The notes under the pieces are model-generated. The model searched no databases. It was not told the DNA's origin and saw only the letters and a list, made by a program, of their open reading frames with translations. From Flavobacteriales bacterium UBA2426 (GTDB lineage: Bacteria; Bacteroidota; Bacteroidia; Flavobacteriales_F; PHOS-HE28), in contig DDRC01000110.1 of assembly GCA_002342985.1 (NCBI GenBank), forward strand, positions 4,176-31,486: a stretch of DNA of 27,311 nucleotides, read 5' to 3'. Of the stretch, positions 1,094 to 25,761 are shown in pieces (the first letter of the stretch is position 1; every line of letters starts with the position of its first letter). Made by a program: the position numbers and the translations under genes.

Positions 1094-1140
1094 GCAAGCT
1101 CCGTTAGCGCACAGCGCGGGGCAATAACCCGTGCGGGTTA
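1094..1140 (-). promoter_or_regulatory. Palindromic promoter module, copy A (FG-GAP lipoprotein)
   Basis: Minus strand 5'-3': inverted repeat TAACCCGCACGGGTTA (1140-1125; 7-bp arms around a 2-bp centre), then TTG, 20 nt, then GAGCTTGC (1101-1094) at the -7 position. This is the weakest -7 match of the five copies but keeps the AnCTT core. The palindrome begins with the TAA stop codon of the collagen-like gene and ends 59 bp before the ATG at 1065. Confidence 0.7.
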
Positions 1141-4122
1141 ACGTCGCTCCAGCTCTGCGATGCGCTTCTCCAGCCGTTCAATGATCGCTTGCTGCTCCTG
1201 CACCGCTTTCACCAGGGGAACTACGAATTCGGCGTAGCGGAGGCCGAGCATGGCGTCGCCGTCGCTCATCTTGTCCACCCCGCTGAAGTCGAAGCCCACG
1301 GCTTGTGCGGCAGCATCCACCTCTTGGGCGATGAAGCCGGTTTGGCGCACGGCGGCTTTCTCCGCTCGGGCGGCGATAGTCTCCGGACTTGGCAGCACGG
1401 TCTCCACCTTGCCGTTGGCATCCACTCGGCGGTCTTCACCGAGGTGTTCTGCCAGCGCCTGCACATTCACGTTGTAGGTCACAGGTCGCAGGCGCAGGAT
1501 GAAGTCGAGGCCCTTCACATCGGCGAGCACATTGCTCTTGAAACGGCCATCGCTCGGCAGGGTGGTCCAGCTCGCGTAGCCGCCGATGCTGGTGACGGCG
1601 GTGTTGCCCACGCGCGCTGAGTTGCTTGCAGTGGGCCGTGCTTGGTAGCCAAGTCCTGTGGCATTGCTCAGTCCTGCAACGGTCGGATAAGCATTGTTGC
1701 CCACATAAGAGCTGTTCGTCATGGTAAGGCCACTGCCCGCGTAAGATCCCAGGGCGGTATTCCCGCTCTGTGTTGCCACGCTGCTCAATGCGTTGATCCC
1801 AATACCCGTATTGGAGCCGCCGCTGGTGTTCAGGCGCAAGGCATTGCGGCCCACCGCCACGTTGGCATCGCCGCTTACGTTGTTGCGTAGGGCTTCAAAG
1901 CCCACGGCCACGTTGCGCGTACCCGTTGTGTTCGCATACAGCGCCTTGCTTCCGACCGCGGTCTGCTCCACTGCTTCTGCAGGGCCGTCGATCGGGTCGT
2001 AGGTGGCGCCGATGCCGTTATTGAGCAGTGCACTATCGCCAACAGCAACGCAATTCCAGCGTGCTACGGCGTTGCGCATGGCACCTGCTCCAACCGCCAC
2101 GTTGGAGAATCCATCCACGTTGCTGCGTAGCGCGTTGCTGCCGAGTGCCGTGTTGTTTGCACCGGTGATGTTGCCCTCTTGGGCGAATGCACCCATGGCC
2201 GTATTCCCTGATGATGTGGTATTGGCCATCAGCGTGTTCTTGCCTACGGCGGTGTTGTTGCTTCCGCTGTTCGCCATCAGCGCGCGGTGACCGAAGGATG
2301 TTGAAGTGCCGCTGGGCGTCACGAAGCCGCCGCGTTCATTGTTCACGCGGAACTCGAGCTGTGCATTGTCCGTGTTACCAATGAAGTTGGTGCCCAACAC
2401 CATGCCCGTGTTGCCCGTGATGCCCCATGCGTTCGAGCTGCCAGCAGGTCCAGCAGGGCCTTGCGGACCAACAGGCCCGATGAGCGCAACACCGGCAGGC
2501 CAAGCGCCCGCTGCCTTCGGGCCGAAGAGTGTGCTGGTGGTGGTGTTGAGGTAGAAGTCCCCATTGGAACCAACAGCGCTGGCCGGGTTCGTCGTACCAT
2601 TCAGCACAGTCTTTCCATCCGTTCCGTTGGAACCATTAGTACCCGGAGTTCCTTGTGGGCCTGTTGCACCAGTAGGGCCTGCAACACCTTGTGGGCCTTG
2701 TGCTCCGGTCGCGCCTGTGGCACCCGGAGGGCCTTGTGCTCCCGTGGCACCAGCAGCACCCTGTGGACCTTGAGGGCCGGTAGCACCCGGAGTTCCAATA
2801 GGACCTTGCGGCCCTTGTGGACCCACAAGAGAAGTTCCGACGCCCCAGTTGCCAGCCGTCTTCGGGCCGTAGATCATAGTGCTCGCGGTGTTGATGTAGA
2901 AGTCGCCGTTGGCACCGATGGCACTGGCTGGTGCGGTTGTTCCGTTGAGCACGGTGCGGCCGTCAGCGCCGGCGGCCCCGGTCGCACCCGTAGCACCTTG
3001 TGGACCGGTAGCCCCGATGGGCCCTGTCGGTCCTGTTGCTCCGGCCGGGCCTGTATTTCCCGTAACCCCCTGTGGACCTTGAGGACCAGTAGCACCCGCA
3101 GTACCAGTAGGACCTTGCGGCCCCTGTGGACCCACAAGCGATGTTCCGACGCCCCAGCCACCAGCGGTCTTCGGGCCGTAGATCATAGTGCTCGTGGTAT
3201 TGATGTAGAAGTCGCCGATGGCACCGAGGGCACTGGCCGGTACCGTCGTTCCATTGAGCACGGTGCGGCCGTCAGCACCCGCGGCCCCGGTCGCACCTGT
3301 GGCGCCGGTCGCCCCTTGCTGGCCCGCTGGCCCTGTGGCGCCCGTGGCACCGGTAGCACCGGCTGGCCCCGTGGCTCCTTGTGGTCCCGCAGGTCCTTGC
3401 GGCCCGGTCGGCCCTTGAATGGAGCCGACATTCTCCCATGTATTGGTGTTGTTGCTCCACACATACAGGCTGCCGTTCACCAGGTAGGCATCACCGGGGT
3501 CGCCCGTACCAGGTAGTTGGTTCACGTTGGTGAGCGAGCCGAGGATGGTTACCCCGGTCCCATCCGCACCTGCGGGTCCTTGCGGCCCTGCAGGTCCTTG
3601 GGCACCTTGAGGCCCCTGTGGTCCTTGCGCACCTGTGGCGCCTGTGGGTCCAGTAGCGCCGGCGGGCCCGGTAGCGCCTGTTGCTCCGGCGACCCCCTGC
3701 GGACCTGGAGGGCCTGCAGGACCTATCGGCCCGGGTGTGTTGCTGGTCTCTGCGAACAAGGCGTAGGGCACGCTCATCAGTTGTGTGGTGCCCATCGGTG
3801 TGCCGTTCACGCTAGTGCGGACGAACCAGGGTCCATTGCTCCAATCGATACTGGCGAACGAGCCACTGACCACCGTGCCACCACCGATCGCCACGTTGGC
3901 CAGGCCGAAGGTGTTGGTGGTCACCGCATGGTTCTCGTTGTACACCACGGTGCCGCTACTGCTGCCCTGCAGCACGGCGATGCCCAGCGTCGCGGCGGTG
4001 TTCGCTTGAATGGTACCACTTGCATCGCGCAGGATCGCTTGGTAGTTGATGCGTTGCGGTGCTTGGGCCCACATGGCCGTAGCGAGTGCGAAGGCGAAGA
4101 GGAGGGAAATAGACTTCTTCAT
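1138..4122 (-). CDS. Secreted collagen-like protein with YadA-like head repeats and S74 intramolecular chaperone
   Basis: 994 residues. A Sec signal peptide (1-20, ending WAQ) is followed by an N-terminal beta-rich domain (~21-125, [10 protein letters not shown]...) typical of Bacteroidota collagen-like proteins. Residues ~130-560 hold several Gly-X-Y collagen-like blocks interrupted by a GTGVTILGS insert (~187) and three copies of a roughly 50-residue module beginning DG[RK]TVLNGTT (~279, ~384, ~497). Residues ~590-840 are about 14-residue repeats such as [12 protein letters not shown], resembling trimeric autotransporter (YadA) head repeats. The C-terminus is a Peptidase_S74-type chaperone: the SDGRFK motif puts the nucleophile at Ser857 and its Lys at 862, followed by GFIAQEV and a final coiled coil. 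S74 domains trimerise fibres and then cleave themselves off, so a homotrimeric surface fibre is inferred. It follows the T9SS-tagged gene after a 3-bp gap, so the two are co-transcribed. Confidence 0.88.
2465..3309 (-). repeat. Three direct repeats inside the collagen-like gene
   Basis: Blocks 2801-3000 and 3110-3309 are near-identical over about 200 bp with a 309-bp offset (103 codons). A third, more diverged copy lies at about 2465-2635. Each encodes the DG[RK]TVLNGTT...GDFYINT...YGPK module plus the start of the next Gly-X-Y block, so the gene appears to have grown by in-frame tandem duplication. Confidence 0.8.
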
Positions 4123-4125
4123 GGC

Positions 4126-4599
4126 TTAGTGGGTGATGGAGATCTTGAAGGACTTCAGGGTGGTATCGTCGTTGCCTAGCACACGCAGGATGTAACCTCC
4201 ACTAGCGTAGGCTTCCATATCGAGATCGGTGATCGCGGATGTGATGCGTCCTTCGTTCACCAAGCGTCCTGCAGCGTCGTGCAGGAAGTACTGCTGTGCG
4301 TCCGCAGCGTCTTCACATGCGATGTGCAGGGTGTGCGATACCGGGTTCGGGTACACGTTGATGACGCTGGTGTTCGCCGGGGTATCATGGACAGGGGTGG
4401 AGATGTCGGCCCAGGGTTGATGAAAGCCTTGGGTGAGAACCACATTGCTGGCACCTGCCGTGGCGATCACCGGTTCCCCGATGGTGTAGGAGATACGGGT
4501 CGTGGCATTGGCATGATGACCACCACCGCCGGAGACCACGGTCTGTGCAGTTCCGGCGATCGGAGCTGCGAGCGGAAGGAGAACGAGTAGGGATCGCAT
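4126..4599 (-). CDS. Small secreted protein with type A T9SS C-terminal sorting domain
   Basis: 157 residues. The signal peptide ends near residue 19 (GTAQ). Residues ~20-70 carry the SYTIGEPV...LTQGFHQP segment that often precedes sorting domains in Bacteroidota. Residues ~80-157 form a T9SS type A C-terminal domain (INVYPNPVSHTLHI, HDAAGRLV, YASGGYILRV, LKSFKISI). Such domains direct transport by the type IX system and attachment to the cell surface. The protein is unusual in having essentially no cargo domain. It is the first gene of an operon with the collagen-like fibre gene, whose ATG follows its TAA by 3 bp, which suggests a partner or anchor role for the fibre (inference). The ATG at 4599 directly abuts an inverted repeat (4600-4629). 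Confidence 0.85.
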   Translation of the reverse strand: MRSLLVLLPLAAPIAGTAQTVVSGGGGHHANATTRISYTIGEPVIATAGASNVVLTQGFHQPWADISTPVHDTPANTSVINVYPNPVSHTLHIACEDAADAQQYFLHDAAGRLVNEGRITSAITDLDMEAYASGGYILRVLGNDDTTLKSFKISITH

Positions 4600-4629
4600 G
4601 GTACTTCGCTTTGGATGATGCGAAGTACC
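4600..4629 (-). promoter_or_regulatory. Perfect 10-bp inverted repeat abutting the start codon
   Basis: GGTACTTCGC (4629-4620, minus strand) and GCGAAGTACC (4609-4600) are perfect complements around a 10-nt loop, and the second arm ends immediately before the ATG at 4599. The first arm overlaps the predicted -7 box of promoter copy B. It could be a second operator blocking the promoter, or, if transcription starts further upstream than predicted, an RNA hairpin hiding the ribosome-binding region. Confidence 0.6.
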
Positions 4630-4667
4630 CGGGTTGCCGAGAGCGCATCAATACCACATGCGTAGTA
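4621..4667 (-). promoter_or_regulatory. Palindromic promoter module, copy B (T9SS/collagen operon)
   Basis: Minus strand: TACTACGCATGTGGTA (4667-4652; 6-bp arms with one mismatch), TTG, 20 nt, then GTACTTCG (4628-4621). It starts 4 bp after the TAG stop of the FN3 gene and its palindrome ends 52 bp before the ATG at 4599. It belongs to the TACTAC sub-type together with copy C. Confidence 0.7.
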
Positions 4668-4671
4668 CATG

Positions 4672-6708
4672 CTATTTCACCTCTACGGGGCCGGGCATTT
4701 CAACGATGCGAGATGAGCCGCCATCAGCATACACGGCTTTGACGGCATAGCGGTAGCTACCGTTACCGGGCACGCGCACATCGGCGAAGGTGGTGGCATC
4801 CGATCCGGCCGAACCCACCGTGTTGGCCATCGCGCCGTTCTTGGAGCGGTAGATCACATAGTGCTTCACCGGTCTGGTCGGTGGCGCCCAGCTCACTTGT
4901 ATGACATCATCGACCACCACTGCTTTGACCGCTTCAGCCGCAGGATGCTCCTGGCGCTGCGGAATGCGCACTTCCAAGGGCACCGAACGTGGCGATCGGT
5001 TGCCGGCGCTATCCACGGCCTGCATCAGATAGGTGTATGCTGCGGCAGCCGTCACCGTTCGGTCGGTCCAGGTGCGCCGCTGTTCACTGGCATTCCAAGC
5101 GACCACCTCGCGCCATGTGGTGTCCACTGGGGAGCGGCGCAGCAGAATGTGCCTTGCAACGTCATCGCTACTACTGGGGATGAAATGGATCACCACTGCA
5201 CTGTCGTTCACCGCATAGCGCTCGATAACGGGGGCGACCGGTGCCACCTGGTCCGGCTTCACCAGATGGAGAACCGCGCTGAGTGGGCTATGGTTGAAGT
5301 TCCTGTCCACTGCCACCACCTTGTAGTAGATGTGTTTGGTGAGCGTGCGCAGTGGAATGGTATCGTGGAACACGGTGTCCTGCTGAGGTTCGGGTGAAAG
5401 GTTGTTGAAGTTGTGATCGGCGGCGTTGGCGAAGAAGACACGGTAGCCCAAAAGGTCCTGCTCTTTCCCCCATGGCCAATGGACCGTCACCACGCCAGCG
5501 GTGTCTATGCTTCCCTTCAGGCCGATGGGTGGTGCGGGCGCGACGGAGTCCGCAAGCACACCATATCCACTCATGGAAACGGAGGCATTGCCTGCGGTAT
5601 CCACGGCCCACACCCTGAAGTGGTTCTGGCCGATCAGGAAGGAGGAGGTGTCCGTGAATTGCCGGGTGGAAGGTGGTAGCAGGTCCCGGTGCAAGGGCTG
5701 GTAGGCAGCATTGGTATGGTAGGTCTTCTCCACGCGGAAGCCTTTCAGGTCCGCTGTTGTTCCGGGCAGATCCCAATACACCACCAGTTTGCCCTTCTCA
5801 TCGTTCACGCGCTGCATCACTGGGTTCGGTGGCGCGGTGCGATCGCGGCCCATCGCGGTCACCACCGGTGCTTCACTGCTGATCATCCCGAAAGGCGTGA
5901 TGCCCAGCACCCTGTACTGGTAGGCAACATAGTCGCGAATGATGGTGGTGTCCGTATACGCATGGTGGGTGGCCGCACCGCGTTCATTGTCCATGGGCAC
6001 GAAGGGCACATTGTTCAAGCGCTGCCAGGCGCCGGTCCCTTGTCGGCGTTCGATCCAGAAGGCGCTGAACGAACTCTTCACCTGCTCGCGCTCCCAGCGC
6101 AGGGTGATTGTGTGTTCCTTCTCCTGCGCGCTGAGCGCGGGCCCATGCGGTATGGTATGCGCACCGTCTTTCCGGTCGATGGCGATCATGGCCGTGTCCG
6201 CTTGTTGGGGGTCCAGTGTGATCACCCGGTACAGGTAGTAGCCGGTCGCGCTCATGTTCTTGTCCACCCAACGATAGCCAAGTGCATTGGCGATCTCGGG
6301 ATCGATATCGGCATACAACGCACACAGCGACCAGCGCATGGTGGCCTGGTCGGCGGCGTCCATCTGCGCGCGCACATCACCGGTGTTGGGTCGTATATCA
6401 GCGCCATAAAGGGCTTGTGCGATGATGGGTGCATGGCTGTTGGCAGCGAGGCGTTGTTTCAATGCCTCCAAGGACATTGGTTTGAGCGTGTCGGCATTCA
6501 GTCGTTGGACCTTCCGCTCTGGAGTGGCCACGTCCACACGTTCGATACGGCAGCCGTAGCGGTTGAAGCGCTCCCAAGCCTGTACGCTGCTAGGTGCCCA
6601 GCGCACGATGACGGAATCGGCGGTGTTGAAGGCCGTGGTCTGTAAGCTTTGACCGGCGACCGTTCGGCAAAGTGCGAAGCAGAGGAGGGCAAGGATGGAA
6701 GGGCGCAT
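4672..6708 (-). CDS. Secreted fibronectin type III domain protein
   Basis: 678 residues from the ATG at 6708, which lies 2 bp after the TGA of the upstream giant gene; a TTG two codons earlier is less likely. The signal peptide (MRPSILALLCFALCRTVAGQ) ends at about residue 20. The rest is a chain of FN3-like domains from about residue 190 to the end. Recurrent signatures are ITLRWEREQ, YQYRVLGI, LVVYWDLPG, DTAGNASVS, VVTVHWPWG, YYKVVAVDRN, DSAGNRSPRS and VIQVSWAPP, each marking the Trp and Tyr positions of the fold. An N-terminal ~170-residue region (SVIVRWAPSSVQAWERFNRYG onward) looks like a further degenerate copy. No T9SS C-terminal domain or membrane anchor is visible. It is the last gene of the barrel/giant/FN3 operon, so a periplasmic or surface partner of those two is inferred. 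Substrate unknown. Confidence 0.82.
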   Translation of the reverse strand: MRPSILALLCFALCRTVAGQSLQTTAFNTADSVIVRWAPSSVQAWERFNRYGCRIERVDVATPERKVQRLNADTLKPMSLEALKQRLAANSHAPIIAQALYGADIRPNTGDVRAQMDAADQATMRWSLCALYADIDPEIANALGYRWVDKNMSATGYYLYRVITLDPQQADTAMIAIDRKDGAHTIPHGPALSAQEKEHTITLRWEREQVKSSFSAFWIERRQGTGAWQRLNNVPFVPMDNERGAATHHAYTDTTIIRDYVAYQYRVLGITPFGMISSEAPVVTAMGRDRTAPPNPVMQRVNDEKGKLVVYWDLPGTTADLKGFRVEKTYHTNAAYQPLHRDLLPPSTRQFTDTSSFLIGQNHFRVWAVDTAGNASVSMSGYGVLADSVAPAPPIGLKGSIDTAGVVTVHWPWGKEQDLLGYRVFFANAADHNFNNLSPEPQQDTVFHDTIPLRTLTKHIYYKVVAVDRNFNHSPLSAVLHLVKPDQVAPVAPVIERYAVNDSAVVIHFIPSSSDDVARHILLRRSPVDTTWREVVAWNASEQRRTWTDRTVTAAAAYTYLMQAVDSAGNRSPRSVPLEVRIPQRQEHPAAEAVKAVVVDDVIQVSWAPPTRPVKHYVIYRSKNGAMANTVGSAGSDATTFADVRVPGNGSYRYAVKAVYADGGSSRIVEMPGPVEVK

Positions 6709-6710
6709 GA

Positions 6711-9700
6711 TCAAGGTGCTGTTTGCATGACGCCACTGCCCGGCGGTGAGAGCGGTGACTGGCTCACGGGTGCCACTGGACCCAGCGTGTGGTTGAACAC
6801 CGCTTCGCCGTGGCTAACCGCCGCCTGCTGGTTCCAGTCGGTGAAGGGCATGCATGTGGGTGGAGGGTGGAAGCTGAAGCGCACGCGGTAGTTGCCGCGA
6901 TAGGCGCGCTTGAACCCGGAGTTCTGGAAGCGGATGACCATGCTGCGGAGAGGCTCCTGCATCGTTCCGTAATCCTCAGCGGGCGGCGGTGGTGCTTGCA
7001 GAGGGCCACAGTTCGCGATGACGTCGGCTGTGATCGTGAGCAACCGTTGATGGTCGTTGCGTACCACAATGGCCGTGGTGTGGTCCAGCCGCACGGATGC
7101 TGTAGAAGCCCCGGTGCTTACTGCGAGGTTGTTCGTGTTCTGGGCCACAAGGCCATTGGCGGGTAACGGCACGGTCTCGTCAGGTGTGAGCGGCTGTCGG
7201 GTCGGGTTTCCAACGCGCCATTTCACTGTCTGGAACGGCGGGATCCCCGGAGCGGAAGGTGTATCGCTGTAGCGCGGTACACCGAATGCGTTATAGGTGA
7301 CACTGCGCATCAGATCGATGGAGCTGCAATTGCGTGCTTCGATCTCCGCGTAATAGTCATACAACACGGGGTCGCTCCATTGCATGGACCATACATCGGT
7401 CAACGCATCGCTGAGAGAGATCAGCGGGGGTAGAATGAAGCTGGTGTTCTGGGGTGAGGTATAGCCGTTGACATCGAACACATCGAAGGACTCACCTTGG
7501 AGATCCGGGCGCAGTGTCTCCCTAGGTGGTGTTGCGCCATCGCTTTCGAGGAAGGTGGTGCTGTTGGTGAGCGCGGCCGCCTTGGCAGCGATGGTGTTGT
7601 GCGCCGATGTGCGGAAGTAATAGGTGAAGAGCAGCTTCTCGTTCGCCCTCACGGAGTACCCGGTCAACCTTCGCTGCCGAAGGTGGAAGGTGTGGCCTTG
7701 TTGACTGGTGGTGCTCGTGCTGCTGGATGCGGTGGACATCATGCCCAGGTCGGCCAACGGGACGTACGCTTGTGGCCCGGTGCCAGACTGCACCAGACTA
7801 TCCCGGTAGATCACCTGCGCCACATAGGTCTTGCTGTTCAGCAATTGCGGCAATGCGAAGGAGAGCGTGGTCGGTGTGTTCTCGTTCAGGTAAGGCGCAA
7901 TGGGGCAGGTGATCGTTGGCCCGCCGGCGAGCGGTGTCAACATCATCTTGTAGATCCGGACCCGGCCCGCTACCGCCTGTCCGAAGATCGCATCCTGCCC
8001 GGACAGATCGGCCTTGCAATGGATGATCGCGGAGCGGCATTCGTCCTGAAGCACATAGCGTTGGCCGATGAAGGGATAAGTGTACAGCAGGTCCTGTTCG
8101 CGGATCTCCTTCAAACCTTCGCCGGTCTTGAACGTGACGGTGGTGTCCCAAATGGCCTGCTCACCTTGGGTGATTGCCGTTGCCCAAACACCTTCGCTGT
8201 TGCGCTCTTCTGCACGCAGCCGCACGTTGAACGTGTATCTGGTCAGTGGGTCGAGGTAACGAGAGGGGATGGCCAGGACTTGATCCTTCGAAGGAGCTAT
8301 CGCCTGGGTGGTCTGCTGTTCGCTACCCGACTTCTTCAAGCTCACACCATCGAGCACCAATCGGAACGTACGCCAGTATGAGCTTCCATTGGAGCGATAT
8401 TCCTTCATGTTGAACGGTGTGTCGAGCTTCATGTTCAACGCTACTTCACAATTCGCGCCCACATCCACGGGCGTGCTGCCCGGTGTGATGCCGTCGTTGT
8501 GTCGTGGAGTGATGTCGCCTATGGGATCAAGACCTGCTAAAGCGCCCGCACCGAAATTGTCGCAGGGATGGCCCGCGGAGAACGGGAAGTTGAACGATCC
8601 GTCGATCATTCCGCCCAGGATGCTGTAGCGTCCGCCCACTTCGCCCCGTACCCAGTTGGGGTCCGCGAAGCCTCCTTGCAGCAGGGTTGCGGCAGCGATG
8701 TTCATGATCTCAAAATCGCCCTCGGCGAACCACACGTCCACATGAAGGCTCACACTTCCGCCGAGGTAGGCGAATACTTGACCGGTGGCGTAGAATCCCG
8801 CAATGCCTGGATCGGCGATGCCCTCACAGGTCATGTTGGCGGCTGAAACGAAGGCCATGTCGAAGCCCAGGCCTGCTTGCAAATGCATGCGGAGGAGGTA
8901 GAAGTCGAACTGCTGGTCCAGGGCACCACGCGCGCCGAATGCGATGCCATTCGCTTCATCCACGCCAGCAGGCCAGTTGAAGTCGGTGCTGCCGAGCAAC
9001 GCGAGCACGGCGGCTGAGTCCGGTGGCAGCGGATCGGGGAGCCCTTTGCCTACCATGAAATAGCTGGTGGTGGAGAACAGACCGAGGAAGTCCAGCCCCA
9101 CCGGCGTCTGCGGTGTGCCCACGAAGAGGTGCCAGGTATCGGGCGTGATCAACAATTCTGCCGCACCTGCGAGGTCGTCCGGCCCGGTCCCCGTGACAAG
9201 GCCGCTGCCGATGGTGACCTTCATGGCGAAGTTGGCCTGGAAGACATCATTGGGGAAGTCGAAGGTGATCTCCGCGCTGCCACGAATGGGCACGTAGGTG
9301 CGATCGTTCCGTTCGCTCATCATGTACACGTTGCCGTTGAGGAAGGCCGTGTTCACGCCACCGCTTTCGCTGAATGACATGCCAGCTGTGAGATCGCCAT
9401 TGTACGCGAGACCACTGGCGCCATCGCCGAAGATGACGGTGGCCTGGAATCCGAAGCTGATGGCGGCGTCGGGCACGAACCGGATGCTGGTGAGCGTGAG
9501 GCCAGGAGTGTAGTCGTCATCATCCTGAGCGGCGATCGTCGCTTGTGTAACCTGTTGTGCGCTCGGCAGGTCAGTGGTCCGGCGCATATGGTACCACGCA
9601 CCACCACCGAAGCCGTAAACGTTGAAAGGTTGCCCGGGCGAGAAGCCACCCTCCTTGGCGAACATGGCATCGGCGTACCAGTAACGCATGCTGTTCACCG

Positions 9701-13595: not shown

Positions 13596-13599
13596 GGCA

Positions 13600-15300: not shown

Positions 15301-15330
15301 GCTGGCCTTGGTGGATGATCCACGCTTGGC

Positions 15331-15377
15331 CAAAAGTGCCTGCGCCGTGCTGGCCCGGCAATACCCCGTGTGTAGTA
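15331..15377 (-). promoter_or_regulatory. Palindromic promoter module, copy C (barrel/giant/FN3 operon)
   Basis: Minus strand: TACTACACACGGGGTA (15377-15362; arms with two mismatches), TTG, 20 nt, then CACTTTTG (15338-15331), the copy closest to the Bacteroidota -7 consensus TAnnTTTG. It begins 4 bp after the TAG stop of the response regulator gene and its palindrome ends 61 bp before the ATG at 15300. Confidence 0.72.
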
Positions 15378-15381
15378 CGCG

Positions 15382-16020
15382 CTATCGCCCGGGGTAGACC
15401 TTGCGCACGGCCTCCATACGCCCGTTCACCTGCAGTTTGCTGTAGATGCGCCGCACGTGCACACGTACGGTCTCCGTGCTGATACCCGCTTTTGCGGCGA
15501 TCTCTTTATACTGCAATCCGGAGGCGAGGCCATCGAGTACGCCTTTCTCCCGGTCGGTGAGCAGCTCGTCGTTGATCTGTTGCCGGGTCTCCTGCTGGAA
15601 GCTGCTCACCACCAAACGAGCGATGGCGCTGTTCATGGGCGATCCTCCATTGTGGATGTCGTGGATCGCTTCGAGCAGTTCTTCTGTGGTGGTGCTTTTC
15701 AACAGGTAACCCGTGGCACCGGCACAGAGGGCCTGGAAGATGTAGGCCGGGTTCTCGAAGATGGTGAGCATCAGGTATTGCACCTCGGGCTTCACCACCT
15801 TGGCTTCGCGCACGCAATCGATCCCGCTCTTACCGGGCATATTGATGTCCATCAGCACCACCTGCGCCGTCAGCTCTTCGATGTGTTCCAGGAACGCATC
15901 GCCACTGGCATACGTACGCACGAGTTGAAGCCCATCGGCCCGTTCGATACGGCGACGTAGCAATTCGCGCAGTTCATCATCGTCCTCCACGATGACGATA
16001 CGGACCGGGGCGCTTGCCAT
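15382..16020 (-). CDS. LuxR/NarL-family response regulator
   Basis: 212 residues from the ATG at 16020 (an in-frame TTG at 16053 would overlap HK3's stop). The receiver domain is residues ~6-125, with acidic pocket EDD at 12-14, phospho-acceptor Asp58 (VVLMDINMPG), Thr86 and Lys108 (GYLLKST). The LuxR/GerE helix-turn-helix is ~152-205 (LTDREKGVLDGLASG, KEIAAKAGISTETVRVHVRRIYSKLQV), complete and with the usual spacing. It lies 29 bp downstream of HK3, so it is co-transcribed with that kinase. It is the only response regulator in the left block, whereas three HisKA_3 kinases, the class that normally partners NarL-type regulators, stand upstream. I infer that it receives phosphate from all three and binds the palindromes that precede every transcription unit of the block. 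Confidence 0.93.
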   Translation of the reverse strand: MASAPVRIVIVEDDDELRELLRRRIERADGLQLVRTYASGDAFLEHIEELTAQVVLMDINMPGKSGIDCVREAKVVKPEVQYLMLTIFENPAYIFQALCAGATGYLLKSTTTEELLEAIHDIHNGGSPMNSAIARLVVSSFQQETRQQINDELLTDREKGVLDGLASGLQYKEIAAKAGISTETVRVHVRRIYSKLQVNGRMEAVRKVYPGR

Positions 16021-16049
16021 GTGGGCAAGATAGCGTTTCCCGCTGGATA

Positions 16050-17900
16050 TCAAGTGGTGAGGGCAAGGTCCAGCTGGAGCCGGGTGCCCTTGGTACCATC
16101 TAAGCTCAAGCGTGCACCGATGCGTTCGGCACGTGCCCGCATATTGGACAGACCATGACCACTCGCCTGTTCCTTGTCGCCCATTCCTTTGCCATCATCC
16201 TCCACCACCAGGCGAATGGACCGTTGGTCGGTACGCATCACCACCCCGATATGCTCCGCCTTGGCATATTTGATCGCATTGTTCAGCCCTTCCCGCAGGA
16301 TGAGGTAGACGTCCCTTTTCGTTCCTGGATCAAGGGTCACATCGGGCCCTTCATGCACGCAGTCTATCGTGTACTTGACGTGGCTCCATTCGAGCATCCG
16401 TTCGGCATGGGCACGCACCCGTTCGGTAAGCCCGGCGAGCGAGTCGTGGTGCGGGTCGATGGCCCAAACGATATCGCCGAGCGATCGATTGGCTTCGGCA
16501 GCGACACGTTCGATATCCCGTGCGGTACGTGCCAGCGCAACGGGATCGTTCTTCAGTACGATGCCCACCTCACTGCTCAGCATGGCGAGTTTGGTAAGGT
16601 CGCTGCCGAGTTGGTCGTGCACGTCGCGGGCGATACGGGTGCGCACTTCGGAGGCTTCACGTTCCTTTTCGCTGATGATCAATTGCTCCTGTGCGCGCAC
16701 CAGTTCTTCATTCTTGGCGCGCATGGCAAGGGCGCTGCGTGCGCTGTTGCGGTAGAGGCCGAACCCGAGCGCGGCGATGACAAGAATTAGACCGCCGCCG
16801 AGCAGTGCATTGCGCTTCTTGCGCTTTTCCTCAGCCAGTTCAGCGGCCACCCTCTCGGCCTCGCGTTCCTGCTCCGCCTTCATGCGCACTTCGGTGATCG
16901 CCTGTGTCTTTTCGATATCGAGGTCGTTCGTGTGAGCTGTTCGGGCTTTGTCCAGATAGGACAAGGCCTGTGCACTTTCTCCGGTGGCGCTTGCCACCAG
17001 CGCGAGCAGTTCGTAGGTACGGGATCGGTACTCGTTGTTCTCCAGCTCAAGGGCGATACGTTCGGCTTCCAGCAGTATCGAACGCGCCTCTTGATACTTG
17101 CCGACGCCACAAAGGGCTCGTGCCAACTGACCGAGGTAGATGCACCGTTGGCCGAGATTCTCATCGTTCCGGAGCTCCGCGGCGGCCATTCGCAAGTAGT
17201 GCAAGGCACTGTCGAAGCGCTCCTCTTTCATGTGGATCTCGGCGATGTCCATGCGGCACAGCGCCGCATGGTTGAGGAGCTCCATACGCTCGGTGATGGC
17301 GAGAGTCTTGCGTTGAATGAGCAATGCGCTATCCCGGTCCGCCTCATCGAAGAGGATGGTCCCGAGTCCCGAATAGGTGTTGGCCAGGTTACCATCCTCG
17401 GGCAGCTTGTCCAGGATGGCCAACGCTTGGAGCGTGAGTGATTTCGCACGGGGGATGTCGTCCGTGGCGCGGTATTGATAGGCCTGGTAGTTCATGGCGG
17501 CCGCCCGCAACTTGTCATTGCCCATGCGCTCGGCCACACGTTCCATGGTGGTGAAGGCCGCCAAGGCTTCGGCATACCGGCCGGCATAGTGGTGGGCGAC
17601 CCCTTCGACCTTGGCGGCTTGCAAGGCGCGCTGGTCCAGCAGCCTCTTGTCACCGCCGTCGTCGATGGCGGTGATCGCGTCGGCAGCGAGGCGCGCTGCC
17701 CTGTACGATCGTTCCGTTTCGCCGGTGGCCACCCACGCTTTCGCACTGTCCAACAGCTGATCGACCCGCACGGTATCGGTCCATCGGCCCGCCTTTCCGT
17801 TCGCGGGGAAAAGCGACTCCACTGCGATGAGGGTACTGTCCTGTGCAAGGACTGATGCTGCTGCGCAAAGCAGGAACAGGACAGGAGCGAGCATCCTCAT
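16050..17900 (-). CDS. TPR-containing sensor histidine kinase HK3 (HisKA_3)
   Basis: 616 residues from the ATG at 17900 (a longer frame to 18014 runs back through the promoter and HK2's end). The signal peptide MRMLAPVLFLLCAAASVLAQ precedes about 330 residues of helical TPR-like repeats (for example ALAAFTTMERVAERMGNDKL, LANTYSGLGTILFDEADRD), then a transmembrane helix at ~364-386 (LLGGGLILVIAALGFGLY). Next come a short coiled coil, a HisKA_3 dimerisation domain with His428 in RDVHDQLGSDLTKL, and an HATPase_c domain (N-box REGLNNAIKYAKA at ~540; DDGKGMG; GHGLSNMRARAERIG). The TPRs would be periplasmic and the kinase cytoplasmic. It is the shortest sensor of the three paralogues and is followed after 29 bp by the response regulator. 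All catalytic motifs are intact. Transcription probably starts from palindromic promoter D. Confidence 0.92.
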   Translation of the reverse strand: MRMLAPVLFLLCAAASVLAQDSTLIAVESLFPANGKAGRWTDTVRVDQLLDSAKAWVATGETERSYRAARLAADAITAIDDGGDKRLLDQRALQAAKVEGVAHHYAGRYAEALAAFTTMERVAERMGNDKLRAAAMNYQAYQYRATDDIPRAKSLTLQALAILDKLPEDGNLANTYSGLGTILFDEADRDSALLIQRKTLAITERMELLNHAALCRMDIAEIHMKEERFDSALHYLRMAAAELRNDENLGQRCIYLGQLARALCGVGKYQEARSILLEAERIALELENNEYRSRTYELLALVASATGESAQALSYLDKARTAHTNDLDIEKTQAITEVRMKAEQEREAERVAAELAEEKRKKRNALLGGGLILVIAALGFGLYRNSARSALAMRAKNEELVRAQEQLIISEKEREASEVRTRIARDVHDQLGSDLTKLAMLSSEVGIVLKNDPVALARTARDIERVAAEANRSLGDIVWAIDPHHDSLAGLTERVRAHAERMLEWSHVKYTIDCVHEGPDVTLDPGTKRDVYLILREGLNNAIKYAKAEHIGVVMRTDQRSIRLVVEDDGKGMGDKEQASGHGLSNMRARAERIGARLSLDGTKGTRLQLDLALTT

Positions 17901-17933
17901 GGTCGGTGGTCGGATCTTACACGTCGGATGCAA

Positions 17934-17980
17934 CGAAGGTCCAACTTCATTCCGATCGTGGAAATAACCCACGTGGGTTA
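17934..17980 (-). promoter_or_regulatory. Palindromic promoter module, copy D (HK3-RR operon)
   Basis: Minus strand: TAACCCACGTGGGTTA (17980-17965), a perfect 16-bp palindrome, then TTT, 20 nt, then GACCTTCG (17941-17934). The first three bases are the TAA stop of HK2. The predicted transcription start near 17928 would leave a leader of about 28 nt before the ATG at 17900. Confidence 0.75.
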
Positions 17981-20050
17981 AGCGGGCGATAGGTCCACGC
18001 GGAACCGTATGCACGTTCCTGATCCGGCATCGCTGGCAATGGTCAATGAGCCGCCGATGTGTTCAGCCCGATGGCGCATGTTCTTGAGTCCATGACCGCT
18101 CATGGGGGCACCGCTCATTCCAATGCCATCATCGCACACCTCGAACTGGACGAACGATGCGGATGTCTTGAAGACCACACGGATGTGTTCTGCATTCGCG
18201 TATTTGATGGCATTGTTCAGGGCCTCGCGGAGGATCAAGTAGATATCGCGTTTGGTGGCAGGGTCCAAGGATGTGTCGGGACCTTCATGCCCGCAATCGA
18301 TGGTATGGGCCACATGGCTCCACTGGAGCATACGTTCACAATGGGCGCGCACACGTTCGGTGAGTCCCGCCAGCGAATCGTGATGGGGGTCCACGGCCCA
18401 GACGATGTCGCCAAGTGAGCGGTTCGCTTCAGTGGAAACGCGTTCCATGTCTGCGGCCAATTCGGAAAGCGCCGTCGGGTCCTCGTTGGCCAAGGCCTTC
18501 GCTTCACTGCTGAGCAGGGCGAGTTTCGTGAGGTCGCTACCCAATTGGTCATGTACATCACGAGCGATGCGCGTTCGCACTTCGGCGGCTTCGCGTGCGC
18601 GTTCGCTCACCACGAGTTTCTCCTGTGCGGCTTCGATGGCGCGTTTGGCCCGGGCCGTGTACCGCCAGCGCAGCCAGGCTGCAGTGCCCAGTATTGCGGC
18701 GATCGCCAGCAAGGCGAGTAGCCACGTCCGTTGTTCACGATGCTTCGCTTCGGTCCACCTTCGTTCGGCCACATGGCGCAGGCTGTCAGATTCCGCAGCG
18801 CGCTCATAGGCGTACTTGAACCCGCTGCGCAACAATTCGCGCTGGTTCTCTTCGCGGAGGATGCTATCGTTCAGCAGCACGACCCGCTCGTGCACCGTTA
18901 GTGCTTCTTGCCAGCGACCGAGCGCCTTCAAGGCCGCATATCGCGCAGCGGCAGCATCGCGCTGCAGGTTCAGCTCCTCGGCGCGTGTAGCGGCGCTATC
19001 GGCGGCTTCGGCCATTGCGAGCGCACGGGCGGGGTTGCCTTCCCGAAGCAGCATAGTGCTCAAGCCCACCAGCGCATTGCCCAACCCGTATGGCAGGTCT
19101 TCTGCACGGGCCATCGCCACGTTCTGCTCGAAGAGGGCTTTGGCTTCACTGGGCCGGTGTTGTTCGAGCAGAAGCGTTGCCAAGCGGTTGCGCACGTTCA
19201 CCAGTCCGTGGTGGTCGCCGATGGCCAGTCTGATCACTTCGCTGCGGCGGTAGGCTTGCATCGATCCGGTGGTATCGCCCAGCTCTTCGAGGCATGAGCC
19301 GATCTCCTCCAGTTGCTTGCCCAGTTGATGCTGGTCATCGAGTTCCTCCGCCATCGCTGCTGCACGACGGTAGTACCCGAGCGCCTCGTTCCAGTCGCTC
19401 TGATTGAGGTACAGGCCGCCGAGGTTGGCCAGCGAGGTGCAGATGCCGCGCTTGTTGCCAAGCAGTTCCTGGATATGCAGGCTTTGTTGGTAGAGGTCCA
19501 CGGCCTTGCCATGATCGCCGCGGAGCATTTGCACGCGTCCGATAGCGTTGAGGTCGTTGGCGATGCTGGTGCTGTCGGCCAAACGCTCATGAAGTGCGAG
19601 GCCTTCTTCGTAGAGCGTAAGCGCGGAGTCCAATTCCCCGAGGTACGAGAGCATACTGCCCATGTTGCTGATCACGTCGGCCTGTCCTTCGGCATCGCCA
19701 TTGCGCCGATGGAGTACGAGCGCCGTGTCGTAATGCGACAATGCCGTGCGCATATCGCCACGCACGTACCACACGGCAGCGAGGAGTTCACTGGCCCTGG
19801 CTTCGAAGACGGTGTTGCCCTTCGTCCGGGCATCGCGTTGCAGGTTGCGCGCCATCACCTCGGCGGTATCCGGAGCGTTGAAGAGGTAACCGTCCCAGGT
19901 GAGGTCGTAGAATGCGGTGAATCGGATGCTGTCCGGCCTGGACCGGTCCAAAAACACCGATCGGAGGGAATCGAGGTCAGCTTGAGCGTTGCAGCACAAC
20001 GCTGCGATGAGCCAAAGCGCAGTGATCAACGAGCGGCACGGTTCACGCAT
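17978..20050 (-). CDS. TPR-containing sensor histidine kinase HK2 (HisKA_3)
   Basis: 690 residues from the ATG at 20050. This start gives a signal peptide (REPCRSLITALWLIAALCCNA) and overlaps the TGA of HK1 by 8 bp, suggesting translational coupling. The periplasmic region to about residue 440 has clear TPR repeats (ALSHYDTALVLHRRNGDAEG, ALTLYEEGLALHERLAD, AVDLYQQSLHIQELLGNKRG, ALGYYRRAAAMAEEL). A transmembrane helix follows at ~442-462 (WLLALLAIAAILGTAAWL), then a coiled coil, HisKA_3 with His500 in RDVHDQLGSDLTKL, and HATPase_c (REALNNAIKYANA at ~610; CDDGIGMSG; GHGLKNMRHRAEHIGG). The kinase core is closely similar to HK1 and HK3 while the sensor differs in length and sequence, which points to different inputs into one output. 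Its TAA stop is part of palindrome D. Confidence 0.92.
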   Translation of the reverse strand: MREPCRSLITALWLIAALCCNAQADLDSLRSVFLDRSRPDSIRFTAFYDLTWDGYLFNAPDTAEVMARNLQRDARTKGNTVFEARASELLAAVWYVRGDMRTALSHYDTALVLHRRNGDAEGQADVISNMGSMLSYLGELDSALTLYEEGLALHERLADSTSIANDLNAIGRVQMLRGDHGKAVDLYQQSLHIQELLGNKRGICTSLANLGGLYLNQSDWNEALGYYRRAAAMAEELDDQHQLGKQLEEIGSCLEELGDTTGSMQAYRRSEVIRLAIGDHHGLVNVRNRLATLLLEQHRPSEAKALFEQNVAMARAEDLPYGLGNALVGLSTMLLREGNPARALAMAEAADSAATRAEELNLQRDAAAARYAALKALGRWQEALTVHERVVLLNDSILREENQRELLRSGFKYAYERAAESDSLRHVAERRWTEAKHREQRTWLLALLAIAAILGTAAWLRWRYTARAKRAIEAAQEKLVVSERAREAAEVRTRIARDVHDQLGSDLTKLALLSSEAKALANEDPTALSELAADMERVSTEANRSLGDIVWAVDPHHDSLAGLTERVRAHCERMLQWSHVAHTIDCGHEGPDTSLDPATKRDIYLILREALNNAIKYANAEHIRVVFKTSASFVQFEVCDDGIGMSGAPMSGHGLKNMRHRAEHIGGSLTIASDAGSGTCIRFRVDLSPA

Positions 20051-22409
20051 GCGGTTCGGGCGGCAAAACGACCGCGAAGGTGAGCAATGTTCCAGTTCCA
20101 GCCCCGCTCCGTACCTGGAGCGTTCCACCCAGGCGCTCTGCCCGCGCCCGCATGTTCCCCATGCCGTTCCCGTGACCGCGGTTCGCATCCATTCCGATCC
20201 CGTCGTCCTCCACCTGGAACTCGGCGCGCGTGGCCGAGGTTCGGAACATCACGCGGATATGCGCGGCCTTGGCATACTTGATCGCGTTGTTCAGTGCTTC
20301 GCGGATGATCAGGTAGATGTCGCGCTTCACCGCCGGGTCCAGCGTCCGATCCGCGCCTTCGTGCGTGCATTCGATGCTGTGCAGCACCTTGCTCCACTTG
20401 AGCATGCGCTCGGCATGGGCGCGCACGCGCTCGGTGAGCCCCGCGACCGAGTCGTGGTGCGGGTCGATGGACCAGACGATGTCGCCCAGGGAGCGGTTGG
20501 CCTCCCCGGCGATGCGCTCGATGTCGTCGGCCAGGGCGGGCACGGCCCGTACATCGCTCTGCGCGAGCTCCCTGGCCTCGGTGCTCAGCAGCACAAGCTT
20601 GGTGAGGTCGCTGCCGAGCTGGTCGTGCACGTCGCGCGCGATGCGTGTGCGTACTTCGGAGGCCTCGCGCGCCCGCTCGCTCTCCAACAGCCGGGCCTGC
20701 GCCTCCAGGATGGCCGCGTTCTTCTCCGCGAGCGCACGGCGGCTGCGGCGTGCGTTGCGCAGGAGCAGGAAGAGGAGCGCACCCACCACGGCCACCACGC
20801 CGAAGCCCGCGGCAAGCACGAGGTTACGCCGGCGGTGGGCCGCGAGCTCGCTTTCCTGCGCGGCGTTCGTGGCGGACAGCTCTTCCAGTTCGGCATCCTT
20901 GCGTTCCGAGGCGAAGCGGACGTTCAAGGCGTTCAGGTCCTTGATGCGTTCGAGGTCCAACAGGCTGTCCTTGGCGGTGAGGTAAAGCCGCAGGGAAGCG
21001 AGTGCCTCCGGCGCGCTGCCATTCGCCTGGTGCACTTCGTGCTGTGCGAACAGGGCATCGCGCCAGGTCTCCAGCCAGCCTTCGCGGGCAGCTAGGGTGA
21101 TGAGGGTGTCCAGGTCGCCAAGCGCGGCACGGCGATCGGCCGCATCGCCATGCGCCAGGATCCGCGCTTGTTCCACCCGCAGCCACGCCCGATCGATGCG
21201 CAGCCCGGGATGTTGGGCGAGCGCGAGGCCCTCCTCGATGTAGGCCCGGGCCTGCCCGAAGCGCCCCAGCCGACGGCATACCTTGCCCAGGTCCAACAGG
21301 ATGGCCGCTTCCTCCACGCGCTCGCCCTGCACCATGTAGATCGCCTGCGGGCCGCGCACCAGTTCCAGCGCCCGCTGCAGGGACCGCAACGCGGTATCCA
21401 GCCTGCCCAGCTCCAGGAGGCAGGCACCATAGGTGCCCAGCAGCGTCGCCTTGACGTGCGCCTGTTCGACCCCCTCCAGGAGGTCGAGCGCCTCCTTCAG
21501 ATGCTCCAGCGCTGAGGCGCGATCACCGAAGTCGATGTGGAGCTCCGCGAGCTCCCGGCCGGTCTCCACGATCATGGCGTTCGACCGCAGCGCCTTGGAC
21601 AGTGTGTGTGCCCGAAGGGCGTTCCGCAGGGCCAGGTCCTGATCGGCCAGTTCGTTCGCGGCGAAGGCGCGCATGCGGCAGGCCGCGCGCTCGTGCAGGA
21701 GCGCGCCGGTGCGCTGGATGAGCGCTTCCGCAACGGCGCAATGGTGCAGGGTGCGCATGAACGCCTCGGTGGTGATGGCCTCCATGGCACTGTCCAGCTG
21801 CAGCTGGATGAGCAGGAAGGTGTCGCGCGAGGCGGTGATGACCTCCGCGATGCGATCGCTGGCACGTTGCACCGTTTCCGGGTCGGCCGATCCACCATAC
21901 TTGGTAACGCTCAGTGCCCAGTAGAGGCCCGTGGCCGAACGGTGGCGCTCGAACGCTTCGAGCGCCTTGGCGTAGTGCACAAGCGCCACGCTGTCCTCGC
22001 CAGCTTCCTCGCAGCGGTCGATGTGCAGGCACCAATGCGCGTAACCCAGGTCCTCCTGTGGTCCGTGCTGGGTGAGCAGTTGCACGGCCCGTGCCAGCTC
22101 CGCCGCCTCGCCGCCATAGTATCCGCTCGTCTGCCTGGCCGCCACCCGGCGCGTGATCGCACTACCCAGCAACGAAGGGTCGTTGAGGCGCTCGGCTAGC
22201 GCGATCGCCTCCTGTGCGGCCTCCATCGCGCTCACCGGGTCCGTATCGCGCTGGTACCACGCCAGGCGTTCCAGCTTGCGCGTCCGGTCGGCATCGCTCA
22301 GGCGCGTGTTGGCCAGCTCTCGTTGCAACCGGCCGATGTTGCCGGCTTGCGACCTTACGCCGTTCCAGGGTGTTAGCAGAAGCAGGAGTAGGAGGGCACG
22401 ACCGGTCAC
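20043..22409 (-). CDS. TPR-containing sensor histidine kinase HK1 (HisKA_3)
   Basis: 788 residues from a GTG at 22409. No ATG lies between the upstream in-frame TAA (22460) and the signal peptide, and GTG gives a plausible leader (TGRALLLLLLLTPWNGVRSQ). The sensor is the largest of the three, about 500 residues of helical TPR-like repeats (SALEHLKEALDLLEGV, ALRSLQRALELVRGP, RFGQARAYIEEGLALAQ). A transmembrane helix lies at ~527-548 (LVLAAGFGVVAVVGALLFLLL). The HisKA_3 domain has His595 in RDVHDQLGSDLTKL, and HATPase_c follows (REALNNAIKYAKA ~704; EDDGIGMD; GNGMGNMRARAERLGG). It is translationally coupled to HK2 (8-bp overlap). Base composition is clearly more GC-rich than HK2 and HK3 despite the shared kinase core. 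Promoter E ends so close to the GTG that the mRNA may be leaderless. Confidence 0.9.
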   Translation of the reverse strand: MTGRALLLLLLLTPWNGVRSQAGNIGRLQRELANTRLSDADRTRKLERLAWYQRDTDPVSAMEAAQEAIALAERLNDPSLLGSAITRRVAARQTSGYYGGEAAELARAVQLLTQHGPQEDLGYAHWCLHIDRCEEAGEDSVALVHYAKALEAFERHRSATGLYWALSVTKYGGSADPETVQRASDRIAEVITASRDTFLLIQLQLDSAMEAITTEAFMRTLHHCAVAEALIQRTGALLHERAACRMRAFAANELADQDLALRNALRAHTLSKALRSNAMIVETGRELAELHIDFGDRASALEHLKEALDLLEGVEQAHVKATLLGTYGACLLELGRLDTALRSLQRALELVRGPQAIYMVQGERVEEAAILLDLGKVCRRLGRFGQARAYIEEGLALAQHPGLRIDRAWLRVEQARILAHGDAADRRAALGDLDTLITLAAREGWLETWRDALFAQHEVHQANGSAPEALASLRLYLTAKDSLLDLERIKDLNALNVRFASERKDAELEELSATNAAQESELAAHRRRNLVLAAGFGVVAVVGALLFLLLRNARRSRRALAEKNAAILEAQARLLESERAREASEVRTRIARDVHDQLGSDLTKLVLLSTEARELAQSDVRAVPALADDIERIAGEANRSLGDIVWSIDPHHDSVAGLTERVRAHAERMLKWSKVLHSIECTHEGADRTLDPAVKRDIYLIIREALNNAIKYAKAAHIRVMFRTSATRAEFQVEDDGIGMDANRGHGNGMGNMRARAERLGGTLQVRSGAGTGTLLTFAVVLPPEPHA

Positions 22410-22413
22410 GCTG

Positions 22414-22460
22414 CGAAGGTGCGTGGGCCGAGCGGTACCGTCAATAACCCACCGGGGTTA
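22414..22460 (-). promoter_or_regulatory. Palindromic promoter module, copy E (HK1-HK2 operon)
   Basis: Minus strand: TAACCCCGGTGGGTTA (22460-22445; perfect 6-bp arms), TTG, 20 nt, then CACCTTCG (22421-22414). The HK1 GTG lies only 4 bp past the -7 box. The first three bases of the palindrome also end the open frame of the asnS fragment. Confidence 0.72.
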
Positions 22461-22667
22461 GTGCCACGATCGCCGGCCATGCCATGATGGGGCCGATGGG
22501 GCGGCTTGTTCCGGATCGATCACGCACGGCAGGTTGCGGATGGTGCTGCCGTCGTTGAGCGCGATGAAGCAGTCGTTGCGGAAGGTGCGCACCCAGCCGG
22601 CCACAGCAAGGGTGGTGCCGGTGAGGGCGATGTCGTCGAGGACGGACTTGATGGGCGTGGGCTGCAT
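22458..22667 (-). pseudogene. asnS: Truncated 5' fragment of asparaginyl-tRNA synthetase
   Basis: The 69-codon frame from the ATG at 22667 reads MQPTPIKSVLDD...VAGWVRTFRND, then FIALNDGSTIRNLPCVID. This is the N-terminal OB-fold anticodon-binding domain of bacterial AsnRS, and matches the Bacteroidota form closely as I remember it. Similarity stops after about residue 51-54 (near 22506-22515), and the remaining 16 residues (AAPSAPSWHGRRSWH) are unrelated. The catalytic class II synthetase core (about 400 residues) is absent. A candidate promoter remains upstream (CATCTTTG at 22708-22701), and the ATG at 22667, not the earlier one at 22703, fits it. It is probably a relic of rearrangement or insertion that brought the kinase block next to asnS; a full asnS must exist elsewhere. 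Alternatively it could be a free-standing OB-fold protein. Confidence 0.75.
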
Positions 22668-22700
22668 GGGGTTGGCCGCGCGCTCAACGCGCATGGCCGG

Positions 22701-22708
22701 CAAAGATG
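22701..22708 (-). promoter_or_regulatory. asnS: Candidate -7 box upstream of the asnS fragment
   Basis: CATCTTTG on the minus strand matches 7 of 8 positions of the Bacteroidota -7 consensus TAnnTTTG and lies 33 bp before the ATG at 22667. The -33 region is weak (CTTC about 20 nt upstream). It suggests the fragment kept the parental asnS promoter. Confidence 0.4.
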
Positions 22709-22796: not shown

Positions 22797-22828
22797 CTTG
22801 CGGTTGGCCGGCTGGGGGCGTATCGTTG
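22797..22828 (+). promoter_or_regulatory. Candidate promoter of the LytTR response regulator
   Basis: CTTG (22797-22800), exactly 20 nt, then TATCGTTG (22821-22828), one mismatch from the Bacteroidota -7 consensus. It would start transcription about 50 nt before the ATG at 22886. No 16-bp palindrome is present, so this gene seems to lie outside the left-block regulon. Confidence 0.45.
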
Positions 22829-22885
22829 CGGTGGCTTCCGGTGCAGGCAGGAGCGGCGGCCGCGGTACTTAACCCAGATCACAGC

Positions 22886-23632: not shown

Positions 23633-23708
23633 GCCATCGCTCCCGCTCCTGCTGGCGCGCCGGCCCCGCCCCGGAGGCGCTGGCCTGCCTTGGAATGTGA
23701 TGAGCGGT

Positions 23709-23737
23709 GGAAACGAATGATGGGGTAAAACGTTTCC
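23709..23737. promoter_or_regulatory. Candidate TetR operator
   Basis: Perfect 7-bp inverted repeat GGAAACG (23709-23715) and CGTTTCC (23731-23737) with a 15-bp spacer. The right arm overlaps the -33 region of the promoter that precedes the TetR gene, a usual position for autorepression. Confidence 0.5.
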
Positions 23738-23761
23738 ATCGTGTTTTGCGGTCTACTTTTG
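23732..23761 (+). promoter_or_regulatory. Promoter of the tetR-RND efflux operon
   Basis: TACTTTTG (23754-23761) is a perfect match to the Bacteroidota -7 consensus TAnnTTTG. A weak -33 element, GTTT (23732-23735), lies 18 nt upstream. The ATG of the TetR gene follows 49 bp after the -7 box. Confidence 0.6.
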
Positions 23762-25753: not shown

Positions 25754-25761
25754 ACCGGACA

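Follow-up and report, generated by a model that had tools for sequence, protein, structure and literature searches.

What controls the minus-strand genes at the left of a 27,311-nucleotide stretch of DNA from Flavobacteriales bacterium UBA2426 (contig DDRC01000110.1, positions 4,176 to 31,486; here called the window), where three sensor kinase genes and a NarL/LuxR-type response regulator gene are followed by genes for surface-type proteins? To our knowledge, the targets of NarL-type regulators in Bacteroidota are mostly unknown. The original prediction held that five 47-bp promoter modules of the same geometry define a hidden regulon of this regulator. All five 47-mers were found on the minus strand of the window with the positions, letters, and layout predicted: a 16-bp inverted repeat (TAnnnC-N4-GnnnTA), TTG directly after it (TTT in the module at 17980), exactly 20 nucleotides (nt), and a box. 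We favor, with a probability of about 0.8, the reading that the five modules are operators of the local NarL-type regulator and serve an autoregulated surface-protein regulon through activation. A fixed operator-promoter geometry would make regulator targets predictable from sequence and testable, and this one links tetratricopeptide repeat (TPR) sensor kinases to type IX secretion system (T9SS)-type and other surface proteins in Flavobacteriales.

Module 1 (positions 22414 to 22460; palindrome 22445 to 22460, TTG 22442 to 22444, box 22414 to 22421) precedes the gene for the kinase HK3, whose GTG at 22409 lies 4 nt past the box. Module 2 (17934 to 17980; palindrome 17965 to 17980, TTT 17962 to 17964, box 17934 to 17941) takes its first three palindrome bases from the HK2 stop codon and precedes the genes for HK1 and the regulator (ATG at 17900). 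The palindrome of module 3 (15331 to 15377; palindrome 15362 to 15377, TTG 15359 to 15361, box 15331 to 15338) starts 4 nt past the regulator stop codon, ahead of a gene for a 566/577-amino-acid (aa) protein, and that of module 4 (4621 to 4667; palindrome 4652 to 4667, TTG 4649 to 4651, box 4621 to 4628) likewise starts 4 nt past a stop codon, ahead of a gene with a T9SS tail (ATG at 4599). In module 5 (1094 to 1140; palindrome 1125 to 1140, TTG 1122 to 1124, box 1094 to 1101), the first three palindrome bases are the stop codon of a collagen-like gene, and an FG-GAP gene follows (ATG at 1065). All five putative operators have the 7-2-7 form of NarL-type sites (two inverted 7-mers with a 2-bp gap), with 6, 7, 4, 5, and 7 of 7 outer pairs complementary in modules 1 to 5, respectively; half-sites in the block are TAACCC type at three sites and TACTAC type at two. 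When the longest open reading frames (ORFs) are taken, only four gaps of >60 nt interrupt the minus-strand genes between 22409 and 1065, which otherwise touch or overlap, and each gap holds one of modules 2 to 5. With module 1 ahead of HK3, this supports the claim of one module per minus-strand transcription unit.

Palindromes placed at or just past stop codons, as in modules 2 to 5, might also be terminators or RNA-processing hairpins that end the upstream genes. By eye, no T-run follows the palindromes (no terminator scan was run), and hairpins of this kind would not explain why TTG and the box always lie at set distances. In addition, a related genome (G023; locus L042, 6425 minus and 6438 plus) carries back-to-back modules between gene starts, ahead of divergent kinase and beta-propeller genes. 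On the missing T-run and the divergent module pairs, we rejected the terminator or hairpin reading, which we regard as extremely improbable. Scanning the window for Rfam families and tRNAs gave no matches.

The regulator (15382 to 16020, minus strand) has the NarL/FixJ domain pair (Response_reg, 81.8 bits; GerE, 62.3 bits; Pfam), and its best solved-structure matches are DesR, NarL, and VraR; it falls below the NarL equivalog NCBIfam NF007935 (126.5 bits against a cutoff of 250). Three minus-strand genes for TPR sensor kinases with HisKA_3/HATPase_c domains adjoin it: HK1 (16050 to 17900; HisKA_3 and HATPase_c), HK2 (17978 to 20188; start codon uncertain, with the ORF overlapping the HK3 end), and HK3 (20043 to 22409; from Pfam and the ORF list).

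We searched the assembly (G000; 3.64 Mb, 256 contigs, 83.6% complete) for the elements and for the whole module. TANNNCNNNNGNNNTATTG had 4 matches, all on the minus strand within the window (1 for the reversed pattern), and TAMYMCNNNNGKRKTA had 6 exact places, the five modules plus C29:10295, which lacks TT after it; allowing one mismatch gave ~35 places. The full strict module matched exactly 4 times, always in the window (reversed control, 0), and with ≤2 mismatches 10 times, five in the window and five outside (contigs C23, C82, C142, C237, and C246; reversed control, 1). Module 5, which ends in GCTTGC, is reached by the strict pattern only with 2 mismatches. The claim that no copy stands elsewhere is therefore true of the strict exact module but not of looser forms: relaxing the palindrome letters alone adds two GATC-centered modules, one before a TonB receptor gene (G000:C23:20929) and one before a FeoA gene (G000:C237:14801). 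G058, a single-contig genome of the window's species, carries the identical five 47-mers.

Among 45 genomes of the genus, only exact module matches were counted, because at ≤2 mismatches 44 of the 45 match and many reversed controls are nonzero. There were 43 exact matches in 18 genomes (reversed control, 0), comprising 6 GATC-centered and 37 non-GATC modules, the latter in 14 genomes. A regulator homologue of ≥60% identity occurs in 17 of the 45 genomes (part of the homologue search was run with an E-value limit of 1e-60). An exact non-GATC module is present in 14 of these 17 genomes versus 0 of the 28 without such a homologue (Fisher P = 4e-9; the 60% threshold was post hoc, and two genomes sit at 59%). 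Moreover, 33 of the 37 non-GATC modules lie on a homologue's contig, within ~12 kb, the exceptions being G003:C187, G026:C7, G065:C314, and G065:C349. Co-occurrence and shared contigs support the regulator at 15382 to 16020 as the likely binder.

A different regulator, encoded elsewhere, might bind some or all of the palindromes. G000 has 31 matches to the regulator type (10 to 37 in each of genomes G000 to G034), and a second regulator might explain why the block has half-sites of two kinds. The co-occurrence of modules with the window's own regulator, mostly on the same contig, argues against this, as does the palindrome near the stop codon of its close homologues: among 11 regulators of ≥70% identity, 9 have a palindrome that begins no more than 3 nt ahead of the stop codon and no more than 33 nt past it (three of the 9 are near-identical, and L007 is counted among them), while L011 lacks a good palindrome and L054 has a weak one at +92. 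We consider a regulator encoded elsewhere quite unlikely.

Sequence comparison of orthologous promoters separates the elements from their surroundings. For 8 orthologous T9SS-tail promoters, mean pairwise identity was 0.83 and 0.78 for the palindrome halves, 1.00 for TTG, and 0.97 for the box, against 0.45 for the spacer and 0.25 upstream. The kinase, 577-aa, and collagen-like promoter groups gave the same pattern with some lower values (box, 0.64 to 0.90; right half, 0.56 in the collagen-like group). Palindrome, TTG, and box are conserved, and spacer and flanks drift. The closest named relatives are metagenome-assembled genomes called Flavobacteriales, Bacteroidetes, or Bacteroidia bacterium. 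If the modules were chance or duplicated repeats without function, copying of promoters along with the three related kinases could account for some of them; yet within the window the spacers and flanks are mutually unlike while the elements match, the downstream genes are of unrelated kinds, and the modules are conserved across species. The chance that they are functionless repeats seems to us next to negligible.

Surface-type genes follow the modules in the window and in relatives. The 566/577-aa protein (13600 to 15300; all genes here are on the minus strand) has a signal-peptide-like start by eye and no Pfam match; a 2,305-aa protein (6711 to 13628) also lacks a Pfam match, and a 680-aa protein (4672 to 6714) has an fn3 domain. 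Beyond module 4 lie a 157-aa protein matching the T9SS sorting domain profile (Por_Secre_tail; 4126 to 4599) and a 994-aa protein with collagen-like repeats and Peptidase_S74 (chaperone of endosialidase; 1138 to 4122); the FG-GAP repeat protein (1 to 1065) extends past the window edge. Scoring of the window plus 38 large loci yielded 61 modules, a total that counts chance hits and near-identical strains; the ORF after the module matches a window protein in 40 (kinases, 14; T9SS tail, 8; 577-aa protein, 7; collagen/S74 type, 7; FG-GAP, 3; regulator, 1). Eight post-module ORFs of relatives gave, in Pfam, DUF5122 beta-propellers (4), FGE-sulfatase (1), Peptidase_S74 (1), and nothing (2); two of the four DUF5122 ORFs also match the T9SS tail, one of them under the cutoff. 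Genes downstream of modules often encode TPR kinases or secreted/surface-type proteins, and gene content of this kind supports the proposal that kinases, regulator, and surface proteins form one autoregulated local regulon. In 6 of the 14 kinase cases, the ORF starts 4 to 5 nt past the box, so the messages of those kinase genes may be leaderless.

What kind of promoter does the module contain? Sigma-ABfr promoters of Bacteroides, in the sections of PMC7366714 that we drew on, have TTTG near -33 and TAnnTTTG at -7. The modules resemble them in having a -33-like TTG (4 of 5; TTT in the other) separated by about 20 nt (exactly 20 in 5 of 5) from a YTTYG box, and some relatives that have the palindrome (L031 and L274) carry TAnnTTTG itself. 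They differ in that no window box has the TA (0 of 5; 4 of 5 end in TT[TC]G) and in their spacing of 20, where the canonical promoters of the species favor 19: G058 has 17 matches to TTG-N19-TAnnTTTG versus 0 reversed, and 11 to the N20 form versus 4 reversed. The spacing itself is narrow. Across 1.37 Mb of DNA, overlapping stretches counted, TTG and TT[TC]G followed 1, 5, 49, and 2 distinct T...A palindromes at spacings of 18, 19, 20, and 21, and TA occurs in the -7 box of 0 of 45 distinct GC-rich spacing-20 modules versus 3 of 3 GC-rich spacing-19 ones. In 375 upstream regions with no palindrome required, spacing 20 showed a smaller excess (8, versus 0 to 3 at other spacings); TTG-N20-YTTYG may therefore be in wider use here as a promoter form. 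As the original prediction had it, the palindrome lies at the -33 element; by sequence, it abuts the upstream edge.

We propose that each 47-bp module is a Bacteroidota housekeeping-type promoter, with TTG near -33 and a degenerate YTTYG box near -7, to whose upstream edge at -33 a 16-bp 7-2-7 operator is fused. A dimer of the regulator would bind the operator. Phosphorylated by HK1 to HK3, the regulator would most likely contact RNA polymerase from a class II-like position and so turn on the operons of the neighboring surface proteins as well as the kinase genes and its own operon, which would amount to positive feedback. We favor activation with positive feedback because the layout is like that of NarL at yeaR-yoaG and ogt, the half-site is like TACYYMT, and the elements fit the -33/-7 type. 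In the portions of PMC7419079 consulted, Escherichia coli NarX-NarL uses a 7-2-7 inverted repeat just upstream of or abutting -35 at yeaR-yoaG and ogt, with NarL II of ogt at -44.5; in those of PMC4886647, the NarL half-site is TACYYMT. Shared with that system are a NarL-family regulator, two 7-base elements 2 bp apart, a putative operator abutting the -33/-35 element, and a half-site, TAMYMCR, that resembles TACYYMT. The present system is unlike E. coli NarL in its -33/-7 promoter type, its genes, the TAMYMCR half-site itself, and a geometry fixed across many paralogues. Porphyromonas gingivalis FimS/FimR, whose regulator binds the promoter region directly and activates the surface-fiber gene mfa1 (PMC1974823, in part), is likewise a Bacteroidota two-component system linked to surface proteins, a link that here is predicted from sequence. 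It differs in that "palindrom" and "inverted repeat" are absent from the text of PMC1974823, and the mfa1 start is 434 bp upstream of the start codon; HK3, the one kinase compared, scores 41.4 bits against the FimS NCBIfam NF053520 cutoff of 600. In the titles and abstract openings of the open-access literature, we noticed no description of this operator-promoter arrangement.

The same operators and regulator could instead work by repression, a dimer beside -33 blocking RNA polymerase until a signal releases it. An operator abutting -33 also suits a repressor, and the GATC-centered class brings a case in point. GATC-centered 16-bp palindromes (TACCnCGATCGnGGTA and variants; loci L262 to L273) show the same TT-N20-box geometry as the window modules; 12 places were taken, all N20, and 10 of the 12 boxes lack TA. 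Of 10 downstream proteins scanned, 8 are FeoA, TonB receptor, imelysin, solute-binding, or HemS/ChuX proteins and 2 have no match, so this class is probably an iron regulon of the genus. Iron regulons are usually repressed when iron is plentiful, and the same operator geometry may thus serve a repressor too. Repression in the window is disfavored by the boxes without TA (0 of 45 distinct GC-rich N20 modules), which suggest weak basal promoters, a point tempered by the GATC-class boxes, most of which also lack TA; it is disfavored further by NarL, which activates from sites upstream of or abutting -35 at yeaR-yoaG and ogt (PMC7419079, sections cited above). We judge repression unlikely. The idea that an activator is needed because the -7 box is poor fared unevenly: the modules are indeed N20 without TA, but so are most GATC sites, and some N20 excess exists without any palindrome.

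On this reading, the locus belongs to a broader pattern, in which each of many NarL-type regulators is accompanied by a palindrome of its own in the same place. We assembled a regulator set from the loci of the homologue searches and some others, plus 80 further matches, the upper part of a longer list with a few skipped; 56 loci (L073 to L124, L126, L127, L129, and L131) and matches of <110 aa or without an in-frame stop were omitted. The 152 matches fell to 133 after identical C termini were dropped, 132 of them with ≥100 nt downstream; L007 was scored as a miss in these tests, its palindrome overlapping its stop codon. In the 250 nt downstream of the 132 genes, a palindrome (≥5 of 7 pairs) plus TT and a TT[TC]G box occurred at spacing 20 in 19 cases (13 of 99 when each 80%-identity cluster is represented once), versus at most 2 at each other spacing from 8 to 32 and 0 at 20 in reversed sequences. 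Regions upstream of the regulators gave 9 sites at spacing 20 and 5 at 19. A site scoring ≥13 on either side at spacing 19 or 20 was found for 56 of the 133 regulators (2 to 6 in ten dinucleotide shuffles); sites scoring ≥14 were found for 34 of 103 on the genus side (shuffles, 0) and for 7 of 30 outside it (mononucleotide shuffles, 0.1 on average). These comparisons indicate that the palindromes of paralogous NarL-type regulators differ in sequence but not in their position relative to -33. The term hidden regulon is too narrow, since many paralogous regulators are flanked by sites of like geometry but different half-sites.

The half-sites differ with the class of recognition helix: for example, STETVRVHVRR goes with TAACCC, STETVRKHVRN with TACTAC, TVRTHIRH with TCACCC/TCATCC, and KQHIHR with AAC..GTT. 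The window's regulator would break any strict rule of this kind, as TAACCC and TACTAC sites are both nearby. In Mantel tests on 64 regulator-site pairs, which include poor rows (e.g., L016, L163, L071, and L186), site distance correlated with recognition helix at r = 0.32 and with receiver domain at r = 0.42; the spacer controls gave 0.07 (helix) and 0.17 (receiver). Among pairs with distant receivers (1,899 of 2,016), the values were 0.18 for helix-site, 0.24 for receiver-site, and -0.02 for helix-spacer. The covariation is significant, yet the recognition helix is not singled out. In a column scan of 46 nonredundant pairs, V187 ranked second of 212 and 5 of the top 20 columns fell in the 16-residue helix (P = 0.01); receiver columns 85, 82, and 81 also ranked high, and a link between V187 or the recognition helix and the half-site is suggestive only.

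We extended the search to 395 genomes of the class. TACYAC-N4-GTRGTA plus TT and TTTG at spacing 20 gave 17 sites in 16 genomes (reversed control, 1), while a spacing one base shorter gave no site in any of the 395 (the search covered no longer spacings). At 6 of the 17 sites (5 of 16 outside the genus), a NarL-type regulator, itself preceded by a kinase match, lies within ~300 nt upstream on the site's own strand; L286 shows a weaker, partial match, and L282, one of the six, is a site region also found in L027. By eye, the ORF that follows begins like a signal peptide at 11 of the 17 sites. We lean toward a class-wide operator code, in which NarL-type regulators of Bacteroidia, and perhaps Ignavibacteria, would sit beside promoters with a regulator-specific 16-bp palindrome fused to -33 at near-invariant spacing. 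If so, sequence would directly show which genes belong to the regulons of many orphan regulators, and individual residues of the recognition helix, V187 of the window's protein among them, could be assigned to bases of the half-site.

Several points weigh against the local regulator as activator of the five modules. Three of the 17 homologue-bearing genomes (G011, G025, and G060) lack an exact module, and the co-occurrence is in part the presence or absence of one locus, because the modules adjoin the regulator. Two half-site kinds in the block face one regulator gene. Spacing 20 is not the sole one, because regions upstream of regulators also gave sites at 19, and the covariation is confounded by descent, because the site tracks the receiver more than the recognition helix. 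Finally, the geometry identifies neither regulator class nor activation, because GATC palindromes precede iron-related genes. Taken together, our comparisons partly support the original interpretation: so far as can be judged from sequence, its core, the assignment of the operators to the local NarL-type regulator and an autoregulated regulon of surface proteins, is right.

Other loci showed variants of the arrangement. FETVRSH-class regulators (L204, L206, L208, L231, and L236) have an upstream TCCCCC/TCACCC palindrome at spacing 19 with a canonical TAnnTTTG box, perhaps a second promoter subtype that serves self-regulation. In loci from Stygiobacter, Melioribacteraceae, and BMS3Abin04 (L065, L066, and L130), an imperfect palindrome lies 13 to 46 nt past a NarL-type regulator and is followed by TT, N20, and a TA box; each site scores <13 and is weak singly. 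We take Stygiobacter and Melioribacteraceae to be of Ignavibacteria type. Beside module 1, an 81-aa minus-strand ORF (22458 to 22703) resembles only the N terminus of asparagine-tRNA ligase (TIGR00457, 22.7 bits, far under the cutoff; residues 17 to 66) and is perhaps a truncated remnant. On the plus strand, the neighbors at 22826 to 27311 look by eye like a LytTR-type response regulator, a TetR-type regulator, TolC-type and membrane-fusion proteins, and the start of an RND pump.

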